Assembly: GCA_020831965.1 (NCBI GenBank)
Contig: JAFIFP010000013.1
Coordinates: 33,431 to 97,430, forward strand
Reading direction: 5' to 3'
From: Idiomarina sp.
GTDB taxonomy: Bacteria; Pseudomonadota; Gammaproteobacteria; Enterobacterales; Alteromonadaceae
DNA: 64,000 nt
Shown piece by piece: positions 40,473 through 44,003 of the stretch (its first letter is position 1; each line of letters starts with the position of its first letter). The notes below the pieces were generated by a model. That model saw only the letters and a program-made list of their open reading frames with translations, searched no databases and had not been told where the DNA came from. Both the position numbers and the translations under genes were made by a program.

Positions 40473-40943
40473 TTATGCTTTTTCCGCGCGAATCCAAATT
40501 AGTAATTTCGCCACATCGGTTTGAATTGCGTCGTTCATTTCCACTTCCATCGCCTCGCGTTCTAAGTCCATTTTCCGAATTTCTTTTTTCGGGAATTGCT
40601 TGCGCGCAGCATGAGTCGGCATGTGTTTGATCTTTTCATGCATGGCGTGAATTGCTGGATACGCTTCCGCGAATTGATAGCTTTCCGCATCTGGCAAATT
40701 CTCAAGTAAAACAGCGAGTCGAATACAACCTTCGGAGAGTGGACACTGCTCTTGCTGCATCGCCAAAGAGATGGTTGCAATACTCTCGTGCAAGTAATTT
40801 AAGCGTTTTGCTTCGCCTGTGCGCTGTTCGGTACGTTGCTTGTGTAATTTCGAAAGCAACATTCCCGCATACACGCTTAATCCGATAATGACCGCAATCC
40901 CGATCAGGCCTAAGACTATCCACAACACAGGCCATTCACTCAT
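40473..40943 (-). CDS. DUF2489-family membrane-anchored protein
   Basis: 156 aa. One N-terminal membrane segment (residues 7-30) and a cytosolic helical domain with CPLSEGCIRLAVLLENLPDAESYQFAEAYPAIHAMHEKIKHMP, the core of DUF2489. This family is typically encoded next to yihI in gammaproteobacteria; here the two overlap by 4 bp (ATGA). Function unknown. The genetic coupling suggests a link to ribosome assembly, as YihI acts on the GTPase Der. Confidence 0.88.
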   Translation of the reverse strand: MSEWPVLWIVLGLIGIAVIIGLSVYAGMLLSKLHKQRTEQRTGEAKRLNYLHESIATISLAMQQEQCPLSEGCIRLAVLLENLPDAESYQFAEAYPAIHAMHEKIKHMPTHAARKQFPKKEIRKMDLEREAMEVEMNDAIQTDVAKLLIWIRAEKA

Positions 40944-41428
40944 TCGTCTTCGTCCTCTGCGTCTACATCAATACCAAGGGCTGCAACCAACTCCTGATAG
41001 CGGTTCAGTTTTTTATCCACCCAGGCTTGGTCATCAGCGTCGAGCGTTTCGCCATTCTCAATCTGGTCGAGTAAGTCCTGAAGTACTTCGTTCTCTTCTA
41101 GAGATTGCAGCTCATCAAGCATGGCTTCATTCAGGTCTTCGACTGGCTGTATCTCTTGTTTACGAACTTCGGCGACCGCAGGATCCTTACTAGGTAAATT
41201 TAATGGTACGGGTTTCTTACTCCCCTTTCGCGGATCTTGATTTGCGTGCGTACCTGAAGACTGTCCAGCCTGCGCGGCCATGCGCGGATCAATGGAGTGC
41301 CGACTACCGGGAGCGCGGCCCTTCGTTTTGTGGGGACGTTTAGGCTCAGCATCACGTTGGCGCTCTTCTTTCGGTGCCGAACGTTGTGCTAAAGGGCCAT
41401 TCTTACGGGTTTTCTTAAGGCGCGTCAT
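40940..41428 (-). CDS. yihI: Der GTPase-activating protein
   Basis: 162 aa. Start placed at 41428 because the family begins MTRLKKTRK; the longer in-frame extension runs into non-coding sequence. A highly basic, low-complexity N-terminal half (KKTRKNGPLAQRSAPKEERQRDAEPKRPHKTKGR) is followed by an acidic C-terminal half (LDELQSLEENEVLQDLLDQIENGETLDADDQAWVDKKLNRY), the charge split typical of YihI. It stimulates GTP hydrolysis by Der (EngA) in late 50S assembly. Upstream on the same strand lies a structured RNA, the same order as csrC and yihI in E. coli. Confidence 0.92.
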   Translation of the reverse strand: MTRLKKTRKNGPLAQRSAPKEERQRDAEPKRPHKTKGRAPGSRHSIDPRMAAQAGQSSGTHANQDPRKGSKKPVPLNLPSKDPAVAEVRKQEIQPVEDLNEAMLDELQSLEENEVLQDLLDQIENGETLDADDQAWVDKKLNRYQELVAALGIDVDAEDEDE

Positions 41429-41502
41429 ACAGCTCCAACAAGGTGAAATTTCAATCAATAAACACCTATAGGATAACTGATTTCGGAGAAAAACGGCAGG
41501 CA

Positions 41503-41855
41503 ATAAAAAAGGCGATGCAAGCATCGCCCCTGAAATCCTTTGGCTACCAGCGAACTGGAACCTACGGTTGTCGCTTAATTGGCTCTCGCCTTATCGTTGT
41601 TATTATTATCCGGTCTCCCGACTTGCAGATCATCCTGCAGTGATCTCCGCCTCTTTTTCTCAGTTACCTTTAAACTTAGGTAACTACTTGTTCTCGGCGG
41701 TAGATTCTTAATGACGCTGCCTTTCATACACACTGAATGCATTTTCGTATACAACCAGCAGCGCAATATTTTTATTATTATTTTCAATACCTTCCTGGCA
41801 TTATTTTTCGTCTTAATTCTTTACGTACTGCATTCGTACGTATTTTCCTCCCACG
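41503..41855 (-). ncRNA. Candidate CsrB/CsrC-like small regulatory RNA
   Basis: The minus strand of this gene-free stretch folds into a series of perfect hairpins: TACGTAC/GTACGTA (41822-41842), CGCTGC/GCAGCG (41715-41763), CCGCC/GGCGG (41647-41700) enclosing TTACCT/AGGTAA, AGATCA/TGATCT, GGC-GAGA-GCC, and GGTTCCAG-TTCG-CTGG-T-AGCC. It ends in an intrinsic terminator. Eight GGA motifs lie on this strand (five within 41536-41648), including CAGGAUG in a hairpin loop and GGGA in another; GGA in loops is the CsrA-binding signature. It sits directly upstream of yihI in the same orientation, as csrC does in E. coli. The 5' end and promoter are not resolved. The alternative is an unrelated sRNA. 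Open frames here use rare Arg codons (AGA, AGG) and do not look coding. Confidence 0.6.
41505..41528 (-). terminator. Intrinsic terminator of the candidate sRNA
   Basis: On the minus strand GGCGATGC and GCATCGCC form an 8-bp perfect stem with a 2-nt centre, followed by TTTTTTATT. No minus-strand protein gene ends just before it, which supports a non-coding transcript. Confidence 0.9.
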
Positions 41856-42260
41856 AGCGGAGCGATAATTCTTATCACTTGTGTGCCTTACCGATTAACC
41901 AAAATAACAACCCAATTAAATCCCAATTTCTTAACAGCGTTTACGTTTTTATTATGATGCTGTTAGTTTACTTGGAAATGCTTACCTGATACTTTCTCTT
42001 CAGGTTTTGGTTATCATAATCGGCTGGCAACTCGCCACACATCTCGTGTTAATGGCAATAGATTACGTGATCGATCGAAGATAGCAAGTACTTTTTTCGC
42101 TCTGATCATGTATTTTTTATGACCGCCGCGTTAAGTTTCGTTTACATAGAAGCATAACAAAACAGATAACGACCGACGCCGAAGTCCACAAATATCAACC
42201 TCATAAAATGATATAGTCAGAAAACCAATTATTTCGCTAACGAGACTTAAAGGACAACTT
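41856..42260. other. A+T-rich gene-free stretch
   Basis: No credible gene. The stretch is A+T-rich. It contains the short dyad GATAAgaaTTATC (41864-41876, minus strand) and should hold the promoter of the candidate sRNA (minus strand) and that of the DUF885 gene (plus strand; TATAGT near 42212 is a possible -10). No terminator and no long repeat were seen. An apparent 92-codon plus-strand frame (41711-41989) overlaps the sRNA and is dominated by A+T-driven hydrophobic residues. Confidence 0.5.
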
Positions 42261-44003
42261 ATGCGTTACCTCATCGGACTTTTCAGTCTTATGCTGTTAA
42301 GCGCGTGTGCCAGCGCGCCTTCCCCTATGTACACAGTCGATCAGCAATTCGACTCTATCGCTAATGAAGTCATGGACTTCGAAGCCAACGAAAGACGAGG
42401 CGATCCTGAGCACCCCGCCCGTCTTTTTGACATTTCACCGGCTGCACTTGAGCGCCGCTACGAAGTTCGCCAAGGGTTTTATGCTCAACTCGACGCAATT
42501 GAGACCGATCGGCTATCCGCCGAGAACCAGATTAACCGCGATATGCTGATGTACGGCCTGCGGAATAATATCTCGAACTACCGCTACAACATGCATCTGA
42601 CCCCACTCACCAACGAAACGGGCCCTCACAATCAGATCGCGCGTACCGTAGGTAATGCGCGAATTCGCAATCAAGAGGATGCCACGCTCTACGTGGAACG
42701 CTTGAAGCAGATCCCAGATTACTTTGCGCAACAGATGGCGTACATGCGGGAAGGTATTGCGTTGGGAATTACCCAGCCCGCCGTGGTATTGCGCGGCATG
42801 CCTGACAGCATTGGCGCTTATGTCACGATGGATCCCTCGGATAGCGTGTTCTATGCACCGGTTCAAGCTGCACGGCAGCATCTATCTGCAGAAGCCATGC
42901 AAACCCTTGACCTTGATGTACAAACCGTCATTAGCACTTATGTAAATCCTGCTTTCTTAGAGTTTCAGGACTTTATGGTGGACGAGTATATCCCTAACGC
43001 TCGTCAGGCTATTGCCGCCATTGACCTACCGAACGGTGAGGCATTTTATGCCGATCGCGTGCGTCACTACACCACGACGGATCTAACGGCCGAGGAAATT
43101 CACGCCATTGGTCTTCGCGAAGTTCGCCGCATTCGTGCAGAAATGGATGAAGTCATCGCCGAAACAGGTTTCGAAGGCAGTTTTGCAGAGTTTATCGAAT
43201 ATCTGCGGACTGACCCCAAATTCTATGCAACAACCGAAGAAGAGTTGTTAAAAGAAGCCGCTTGGATAGCGAAACGGGCCGATGCGGCTTTGCCAAGATT
43301 GTTTGGACGTTTACCTCGGACTCCTTATGGTGTCGCCCCTGTACCTGCTGAAATCGCGCCCACCTACACGACCGGTCGCTACCTGTCTTCAAGCGCTGAC
43401 GACGAACCCGGCTACTACTGGGTCAACACCTACGCTCTCGATCGTCGCCCGCTTTATGAGCTTGAAGCACTGACCCTGCATGAAGGTGTGCCCGGGCACC
43501 ACCTGCAAATCGCACTCGCACAAGAAATGGAAGACGTGCCATCGTATCGCCGAACAACCTACATTTCGGCATTTGGTGAAGGCTGGGGCTTGTATGCGGA
43601 ATATCTCGGACTTGAAGCGGGCTTCTACCAAGACCCCTACAGCAACTTTGGCCGCCTAACCTATGAGATGTGGCGTGCGGCGCGGCTTGTTGTAGATACC
43701 GGCATGCATACCATGGGCTGGAGTCGTGACCGGGCAGTGGCCTTCCTTGCCAACAACACCGCCTTATCTATGCATAATGTGAACACTGAGATTGACCGCT
43801 ACATCAGCTGGCCAGCTCAAGCGCTATCTTACAAACTAGGTGTTTTACTCATTAAAGATCTGCGAGCTGAAGCAGAGGCGGCACTCGGTAGCCGTTTTGA
43901 TGTTCGAGAGTTTCACGATGAAGTGCTCAAAAATGGAAGTATTCCGTTGGCGACACTAGAACAGCAGATTCGCGATTACATCGCCCGCAAGCAAGCCGAA
44001 TAG
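42261..44003 (+). CDS. DUF885-family metallopeptidase-like lipoprotein
   Basis: 580 aa. Lipobox LLSAC at about residues 12-16. The zinc-peptidase-like motif HEGVPGHH begins at H407-E408, with the downstream FGEGWGLYAEYLGLE block that supplies further ligands in this family. Many DUF885 members are predicted peptidases. It would be anchored in the envelope, facing outward, like the three lipoprotein hydrolases at 21-28 kb, fitting a protein-feeding lifestyle. It lies between the sRNA region and a strong bidirectional terminator, so it is a single-gene unit. Substrate unknown. Confidence 0.87.
   Translation: MRYLIGLFSLMLLSACASAPSPMYTVDQQFDSIANEVMDFEANERRGDPEHPARLFDISPAALERRYEVRQGFYAQLDAIETDRLSAENQINRDMLMYGLRNNISNYRYNMHLTPLTNETGPHNQIARTVGNARIRNQEDATLYVERLKQIPDYFAQQMAYMREGIALGITQPAVVLRGMPDSIGAYVTMDPSDSVFYAPVQAARQHLSAEAMQTLDLDVQTVISTYVNPAFLEFQDFMVDEYIPNARQAIAAIDLPNGEAFYADRVRHYTTTDLTAEEIHAIGLREVRRIRAEMDEVIAETGFEGSFAEFIEYLRTDPKFYATTEEELLKEAAWIAKRADAALPRLFGRLPRTPYGVAPVPAEIAPTYTTGRYLSSSADDEPGYYWVNTYALDRRPLYELEALTLHEGVPGHHLQIALAQEMEDVPSYRRTTYISAFGEGWGLYAEYLGLEAGFYQDPYSNFGRLTYEMWRAARLVVDTGMHTMGWSRDRAVAFLANNTALSMHNVNTEIDRYISWPAQALSYKLGVLLIKDLRAEAEAALGSRFDVREFHDEVLKNGSIPLATLEQQIRDYIARKQAE

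Follow-up and report, generated by a model that had tools for sequence, protein, structure and literature searches.

The yihI locus and its predicted RNA

The window analyzed here is a stretch of 64,000 nucleotides from a 2.67 Mb Idiomarina genome. Within it, the region between a DUF885 gene and yihI folds strongly and then ends in an intrinsic terminator on the minus strand. The minus-strand genes on the yihI side are yihI itself and a DUF2489 gene. Among the named genomes found, Aliidiomarina celeris encodes the nearest YihI, at 46% identity. An initial annotation had placed a GGA-rich RNA of CsrB/CsrC type just upstream of yihI on the minus strand, and the Pfam assignment of the neighboring gene confirms this placement (Table 1). 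The fold of 388 nt of minus strand has a z-score of -4.9, and none of 100 shuffles is equally good. The number of helices in the minimum-energy fold is comparable to the seven hairpins claimed earlier. The UUCG- and GNRA-capped stems described in the initial annotation are both present (CCAG-UUCG-CUGG and CGG-GAGA-CCG), as are its eight GGA (counted by eye within 41503-41855) and its intrinsic terminator, with 10 pairs (G-U allowed) and an end at ~41505. The motif CAGGAUG, described as lying in a loop, does sit in a hairpin, but the first G of its GGA is paired in the minimum-energy fold. The open frames had been judged not to encode protein, and the comparison agrees. For the 70-aa frame at 41575-41787, a Pfam search at E 0.001 gave no match. 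A coding reading of the region was rejected, as no frames are conserved across relatives and many insertions and deletions separate them (both by eye).

The relatives comprise a genus set of 17 genomes, including the window genome (G000), which together with A. celeris provide 18 genus copies. Further genomes come from the surrounding family (f1, presumably Alteromonadaceae) and from more distant lineages, among them the csrC-like control G050, which is presumably enteric. A loose promoter pattern, TTGnnn-N16-TAnnnT, occurs at the corresponding place in 14 of the 18 genus copies. The same pattern is found in G065 and G067, which represent two other genera, and in seven of the eight GGA-rich family relatives tried; it was not found in G050. 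The window sequence itself is a weak sigma-70 match that is absent from the consensus-scan list. With the promoter placed by comparison, the predicted unit measures about 550 nt instead of 353 nt, and the probable start of the RNA moves to near 42053, some 200 nt upstream of the end given in the initial annotation. Farther upstream, TTAACG followed by an A-rich ATAA stretch recurs (42100-42160 in the window and in several genus copies, by eye), which could possibly be a new operator.

Table 1. Positions of features at the yihI locus and of the residual uvrY gene in the window genome
Feature	Position	Strand	Basis
Predicted non-coding RNA, ~550 nt, at the csrC position upstream of yihI	41505..42053	-	Promoter pattern and terminator recurrent in genus; fold z -4.9 over 388 nt
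Putative promoter TTGCTA-N16-TAATCT	42060..42087	-	Loose pattern recurrent in relatives; weak sigma-70 consensus
Intrinsic terminator (GGCGATGC..GCATCGCC and T-run)	41505..41531	-	Terminator prediction
UUCG-capped stem	41546..41557	-	Sequence and minimum-energy fold; sequence not conserved in relatives
GCGACAA, conserved start of 3' module	41568..41574	-	17/18 genus copies
A-rich (AAN)n linker	41591..41609	-	Sequence
Stem, near-symmetric purine internal loop (GAGAACAAG / GAGAAAAAG) and inner stem-loop	41647..41700	-	13/13 group-B copies
AGGA hairpin (AAUGCC-AGGAA-GGUAUU), candidate CsrA site	41786..41802	-	Fold and comparison of copies
Pair of adjacent GGA (GGGAGGA), perhaps the partner of the hairpin GGA in a displaced position	41846..41851	-	Sequence; GGA 17-18 nt from the hairpin GGA in 15 other copies
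yihI (Der GTPase activator family)	40943..41428	-	Pfam PF04220 YihI, E 1e-32
DUF885 gene, flanking the RNA region opposite yihI	42261-44003	+	
Residual uvrC-linked UvrY of the window genome	L161 1483-2157 (G000:C14)		HTH, no detectable receiver; likewise L182-L187

Conserved elements and covariation

In 17/17 genus genomes and in A. celeris, a relative of the RNA immediately precedes yihI on the same strand. DNA similarity searches in the genus relatives recovered only the terminator of this RNA, and the other matches were short A-rich stretches elsewhere. Beyond the terminator, an alignment of the 3' modules yielded no common consensus; in that alignment the terminators of G002 and G016 are incomplete. 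The GCGACAA element is altered in one genus copy (G006) and takes the form UGACAA in G065 and G067. AAN runs of 12-21 nt occur, as a raw count, in 16 of the 18 genus copies. The genus is divided here into groups A and B by the presence or absence of csrB at tadA, with A. celeris placed in group B by its internal loop. Group A forms one clade in the YihI tree (98/94). Group B is not shown as one, and G065 and G067 stand beside part of it.

A GCC-AGGA-GGC hairpin is present in 15 of the 18 genus copies and in G065, giving 16 copies. It is absent from G012, G015 and G016, and also from G067, whose likeness to the genus copies rests on the 3' module and the promoter. The stem varies in sequence among the 15 non-window copies, with one pair found as CG, TA, AT, GC or TG and another as CG or TA; the window copy is left out of these counts because its loop is one base longer. 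Upstream of the hairpin stands a second GGA, at a GGA-to-GGA spacing of 18 nt in 13/16 copies and 17 nt in 2/16. The window copy is the sole exception, since another stem-loop intervenes. The bipartite arrangement of GGA and AGGA hairpin at 17-18 nt is thereby present in 14/18 genus copies and in G065. The accessible text of PMC7652899 gives a CsrA bridging range of 10-63 nt between sites with an optimum above 18 nt. The observed spacing falls inside this range and near the optimum.

A second structured element characterizes group B. All 13 group-B copies contain a module in which a near-symmetric internal loop, GAKAAAAAG-like on both strands, separates an outer from an inner helix. Canonical pairs fill 62/65 cells of the outer helix, with both-side changes at all five positions, and 50/52 cells of the inner. 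These counts rest on manually designated motifs and use the location where the outer helix forms the most pairs and whichever of two inner registers pairs better (locations in G003 and G006 were set by hand). The loop sequence varies little across these copies, while the flanking stems change sequence yet still pair. The motif is absent from all five group-A copies. The initial annotation had named covariation in relatives beside yihI as a check, and the group-B stem provides strong covariation for a structured RNA.

The Csr circuit in the genus

Csr RNAs are textbook protein-sponge RNAs driven by BarA-UvrY. The yihI-side RNA departs from this picture in its GGA content. Within the 420 nt ending at the terminator, the window copy has 9 GGA where dinucleotide shuffles average 8.5 (z 0.2). 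Enrichment is absent from all 15 genus copies measured (z -1.4 to 0.7). GGA statistics cover 15/18 genus copies and 21/50 family genomes, as the terminator finder failed or the region was too short elsewhere. The csrC-like control G050, with 13 GGA, reaches a z of only 1.3 in the same test, which is not sharp given this control. In the window copy, GGA have a mean unpaired probability of 0.44 compared to 0.43 for all bases, and 5/9 are at 0.5 or above. The earlier description of the RNA as GGA-rich is not upheld by these counts. As to display in loops, the conserved AGGA hairpin stands beside window GGA that are not preferentially unpaired.

The input side of the circuit appears altered as well. 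UvrY above the cut-off is found in 0/17 genus genomes and in 16/17 other genomes of the family, the remaining one (G027) having UvrY split in two pieces. Among 36 further genomes, 34 have UvrY above the cut-off, and the exceptions are G065 and G067, the two other genera in which a related RNA was seen (a bipartite element in G065, the 3' module and promoter in G067). In the genus, the seven uvrC-linked UvrY proteins examined have no Pfam receiver at E 1 and have kept the HTH; two of two controls gave receiver matches at E 4e-31 and 1e-29. The YihI tree unites the genus, G065 and G067 in one group (99/96) and also draws the distant G050, on a long branch, within it. This grouping points to a probable single origin of the UvrY loss and the RNA form, so that their coincidence would count as one observation. 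GacA is listed as present in Idiomarina in the accessible part of PMC7366521. All 17 genus genomes encode a hybrid kinase that resembles BarA but scores under the family cut-off. Here and below, the identities of alaS, guaA, uvrC, tadA and NhaC-like genes were read by eye from the sequence.

CsrA itself is encoded twice in the window genome. The main copy is 62 aa long, and a second, diverged CsrA is located away from it (L226 1532-1714, G000:C14), perhaps on a mobile element. A GGA-rich stretch on the plus strand of the same genome (~2300-2400 of L161) runs divergently from the residual uvrY and is possibly a further Csr-type RNA or a leader.

A CsrB-type RNA distinguishes the two groups of the genus. 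Five group-A genomes carry a GGA-dense RNA of this type with 12-14 GGA, ~180-234 nt upstream of tadA (L188-L192). Rfam RF00018 missed three of these five, so that absence by this model alone is weak evidence; the model has no match in the window genome at E 10. No such RNA lies upstream of tadA in the 12 group-B genomes. In 11 of them the upstream gene ends within ~80 nt of tadA (by eye), and G016 has palindromic repeats instead. Repeated palindromic elements with a CAACGCATTGCGTTGG-like sequence occur both there and upstream of yihI in G012. A search with a covariance model of the group-A csrB turned up no convincing copy in group B, G065 or G067 (best 19.2 bits, in group B). Because the model was trained on the five group-A sequences, it necessarily detects them; diverged copies may escape it, and no more than 150 candidates were scored in each genome. 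Reading the absence of csrB at tadA in group B as a loss gains no support from other CsrB loci. No tadA was found within the 1.5 kb flanks of 30 CsrB loci of relatives, which supports no direction of change; group B may have lost csrB, or group A may have gained or moved it. The CsrB match in G013, located where a peptidase-like gene ends, was considered spurious, and those of G006 are fragments of 26-34 nt. Tandem runs of several CsrB matches were observed in G041 (five at C1:4533806-4536939) and in G034 (C1:68227-70096 and 595028-595758).

Ancestry, present role and known systems

Covariance models give thin support for orthology with known Csr RNAs. The Rfam scan of the window gave no match, and the Csr/Rsm models applied to 41300-42050 gave no Csr match at E 10, so that the model search suggested in the initial annotation (CsrB, CsrC, RsmY, RsmZ) came out negative. 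The CsrC model does match exactly at the RNA in 3 of the 18 genus loci, all in group A, with 30.0, 23.5 and 21.0 bits (E 3e-5 to 0.03), values below the gathering threshold of 61 bits. Among 20 family loci upstream of yihI, no Csr family was found at E 0.1 and the scan returned two weak matches, BjrC68 and AbsR28. Many family genomes have long intergenic stretches upstream of yihI on the same strand with 8-16 GGA, and GGA enrichment there reaches z 2.0-3.9 in 14 of the 21 genomes measured. Some have little room, such as G022 with 63 nt, as measured from ORFs of at least 100 codons; spurious ORFs disturb this measure, for instance in G008.

The UvrY operator separates the genus from some of these relatives. 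According to the accessible text of PMC4682653, the csrC operator of E. coli is TGTGAGACATTGCCGATA. This type of operator is found with 0-2 mismatches in 12/49 family genomes and in 3/5 others (two f16 genomes of another family and G050), and all 18 genus copies have at least 5 mismatches. In 200 composition shuffles of one sequence, 3 or fewer mismatches arise in 1%. The window copy has at best 5 mismatches to the csrC-type operator and 4 to the symmetric form of the box, in agreement with the earlier statement that no clear UvrY/GacA box is present. A symmetric box with 2 mismatches occurs in G002 and G004, about the chance level (7.5% of shuffles per sequence).

Given the GGA-rich and operator-bearing relatives beside yihI and the three CsrC matches, the RNA is most likely a derived, positional orthologue of csrC. 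The csrC-like arrangement noted in the initial annotation thus gains support from the relatives, with 12/49 carrying the operator and 7/8 sharing the promoter spacing. The same relatives and matches suggest a csrC locus beside yihI that antedates both the enteric bacteria and the split between them and this family, in line with the earlier proposal that csrC is older than usually thought. The assignment of the window RNA to the CsrB/CsrC type fares less evenly. Its site and probably its ancestry stand, but its GGA are at chance level, no Rfam model matches in the window and the operator is missing. The accessible literature on Csr RNAs and CsrA, which was covered in part, contained no account of a yihI-side RNA in Idiomarina or Aliidiomarina.

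With few of the usual protein-binding sites and the usual switch lost, the RNA probably works in a changed way. We hold with moderate confidence that it is a csrC descendant uncoupled from BarA-UvrY that still titrates CsrA, engaging one to few dimers, and that it may be the sole Csr-type RNA of group B. A csrC-type RNA would already have occupied the site upstream of yihI in the time before this family diverged from the enteric bacteria. The lineage of the genus would then have lost its input, as both the receiver of the uvrC-linked UvrY and the csrC-type operator of the RNA disappeared. What the RNA would have retained is a promoter and a terminator, together with a single bipartite CsrA-type site (a GGA and the AGGA hairpin) in the majority of copies. 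Expression might proceed from its own promoter without input from BarA-UvrY. Through the bipartite element, each RNA could bind one to few CsrA dimers, compared to many for CsrB. In group B, where no csrB was detected, the yihI-side RNA would perhaps be the only such RNA, and the internal-loop module suggests an additional partner there. The sequences themselves show the locus, the structure, the covariation, the GGA counts and the absence of the operator, of a receiver (seven genomes) and of csrB at tadA in group B; the direction of these changes, transcription, CsrA binding and expression uncoupled from BarA-UvrY are what we infer from comparing genomes. Weighing against this reading are, in the window copy, GGA at chance level and no GGA 17-18 nt from that of the hairpin, along with the copies that lack the hairpin, the thin support from covariance models, the BarA-like kinase still encoded throughout the genus, the family genomes with little room upstream of yihI, and the listing of GacA for Idiomarina.

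A csrC descendant that has left the CsrA system altogether appears rather unlikely, though GGA at chance level would fit it. A new protein or RNA partner would then read the GAKAAAAAG loop, perhaps as a homodimer given the near-identical sequence on both strands, or the A-rich (AAN)n linkers, perhaps as an Hfq-like ligand. Hfq binds ARN repeats. The near-constant loop between varying stems in 13/13 group-B copies points toward such a partner, as do, on raw counts, the AAN runs of most genus copies. The loop motif is, however, missing from the five group-A copies, and the bipartite AGGA/GGA element kept in 14/18 genus copies and G065 is hard to explain without CsrA. A combination of both readings is unlikely in our judgment, and we offer it as speculation. 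An ancient CsrA sponge could have outlived its activating circuit and been refitted with a repeated GAKAAAAAG internal loop recruiting a new partner, probably a dimer. In this way a sponge would have become a scaffold or adaptor that links CsrA with another regulator.

Since the RNA immediately precedes yihI on its strand in 17/17 genus genomes and A. celeris, it could also be a regulatory leader or attenuator of yihI instead of a free RNA. This is improbable, given the terminator between RNA and gene, the gap of 76-199 nt from T-run to yihI in the 15 genus copies measured, the TATCCTATAG-like -10 seen there by eye in several copies, and the csrC-type operator at the same spot in GGA-rich relatives. 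The canonical CsrB/CsrC sponge with many GGA sites, as envisaged in the initial annotation, is very improbable for this RNA. Nine GGA where 8.5 are expected, a lack of enrichment across the 15 genus copies, no Rfam Csr match in the window, no csrC-type operator and no canonical UvrY in the genus all argue against it, despite the csrC site and strand, the sub-threshold CsrC matches in three relatives, the 8 GGA in the annotated span and the modest score of G050 (z 1.3). We thus favor the CsrA-titrating csrC descendant described above.

The genomes compared here form a natural series, from GGA-rich RNAs with an operator in relatives, through a GGA-poor RNA alongside csrB in group A, to group B, where the RNA is likewise GGA-poor and no csrB was found. 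UvrY without a detectable receiver accompanies the GGA-poor RNAs in the seven genomes examined. The series makes it testable how a sponge RNA changes after the loss of its switch and how few GGA suffice. It also suggests that the Rfam models miss such yihI-side RNAs.

Among known systems, the putative csrC of Shewanella oneidensis is a comparable GGA-poor Csr candidate. In the accessible text of PMC3171408, it is described as transcribed, with four GGA motifs, and not dependent on BarA/UvrY. It lies between mutM and SO_4727 and not beside yihI, and nothing indicates that the two RNAs are homologous. RsmY and RsmZ, the few-site CsrA/RsmA antagonists of pseudomonads, resemble the RNA studied here in the few CsrA-type sites proposed for it. 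No Csr/Rsm model matches the window RNA. CsrB (RF00018) represents the functional class proposed for the yihI-side RNA, and group A additionally has a GGA-dense RNA of that type; the tadA-side RNA is, however, another locus, and the window genome has no RF00018 match. CsrC (RF00084) of E. coli and Salmonella shares the position upstream of yihI and the strand. The 5' GGA hairpin and the GGCGA..UCGCC terminator of its model align with the three matching genus copies, and its type of UvrY operator is common to some family relatives of the RNA. The yihI-side RNA differs from CsrC in its predicted length, about twice as great (550 nt against a model of 255 positions), in its chance-level GGA, in the missing csrC-type operator and in the covarying internal-loop module of group B. 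The yihI-side RNA is thus probably a derived and rewired CsrC descendant, for which the earlier CsrC idea was probably right on the origin and wrong on the present form.
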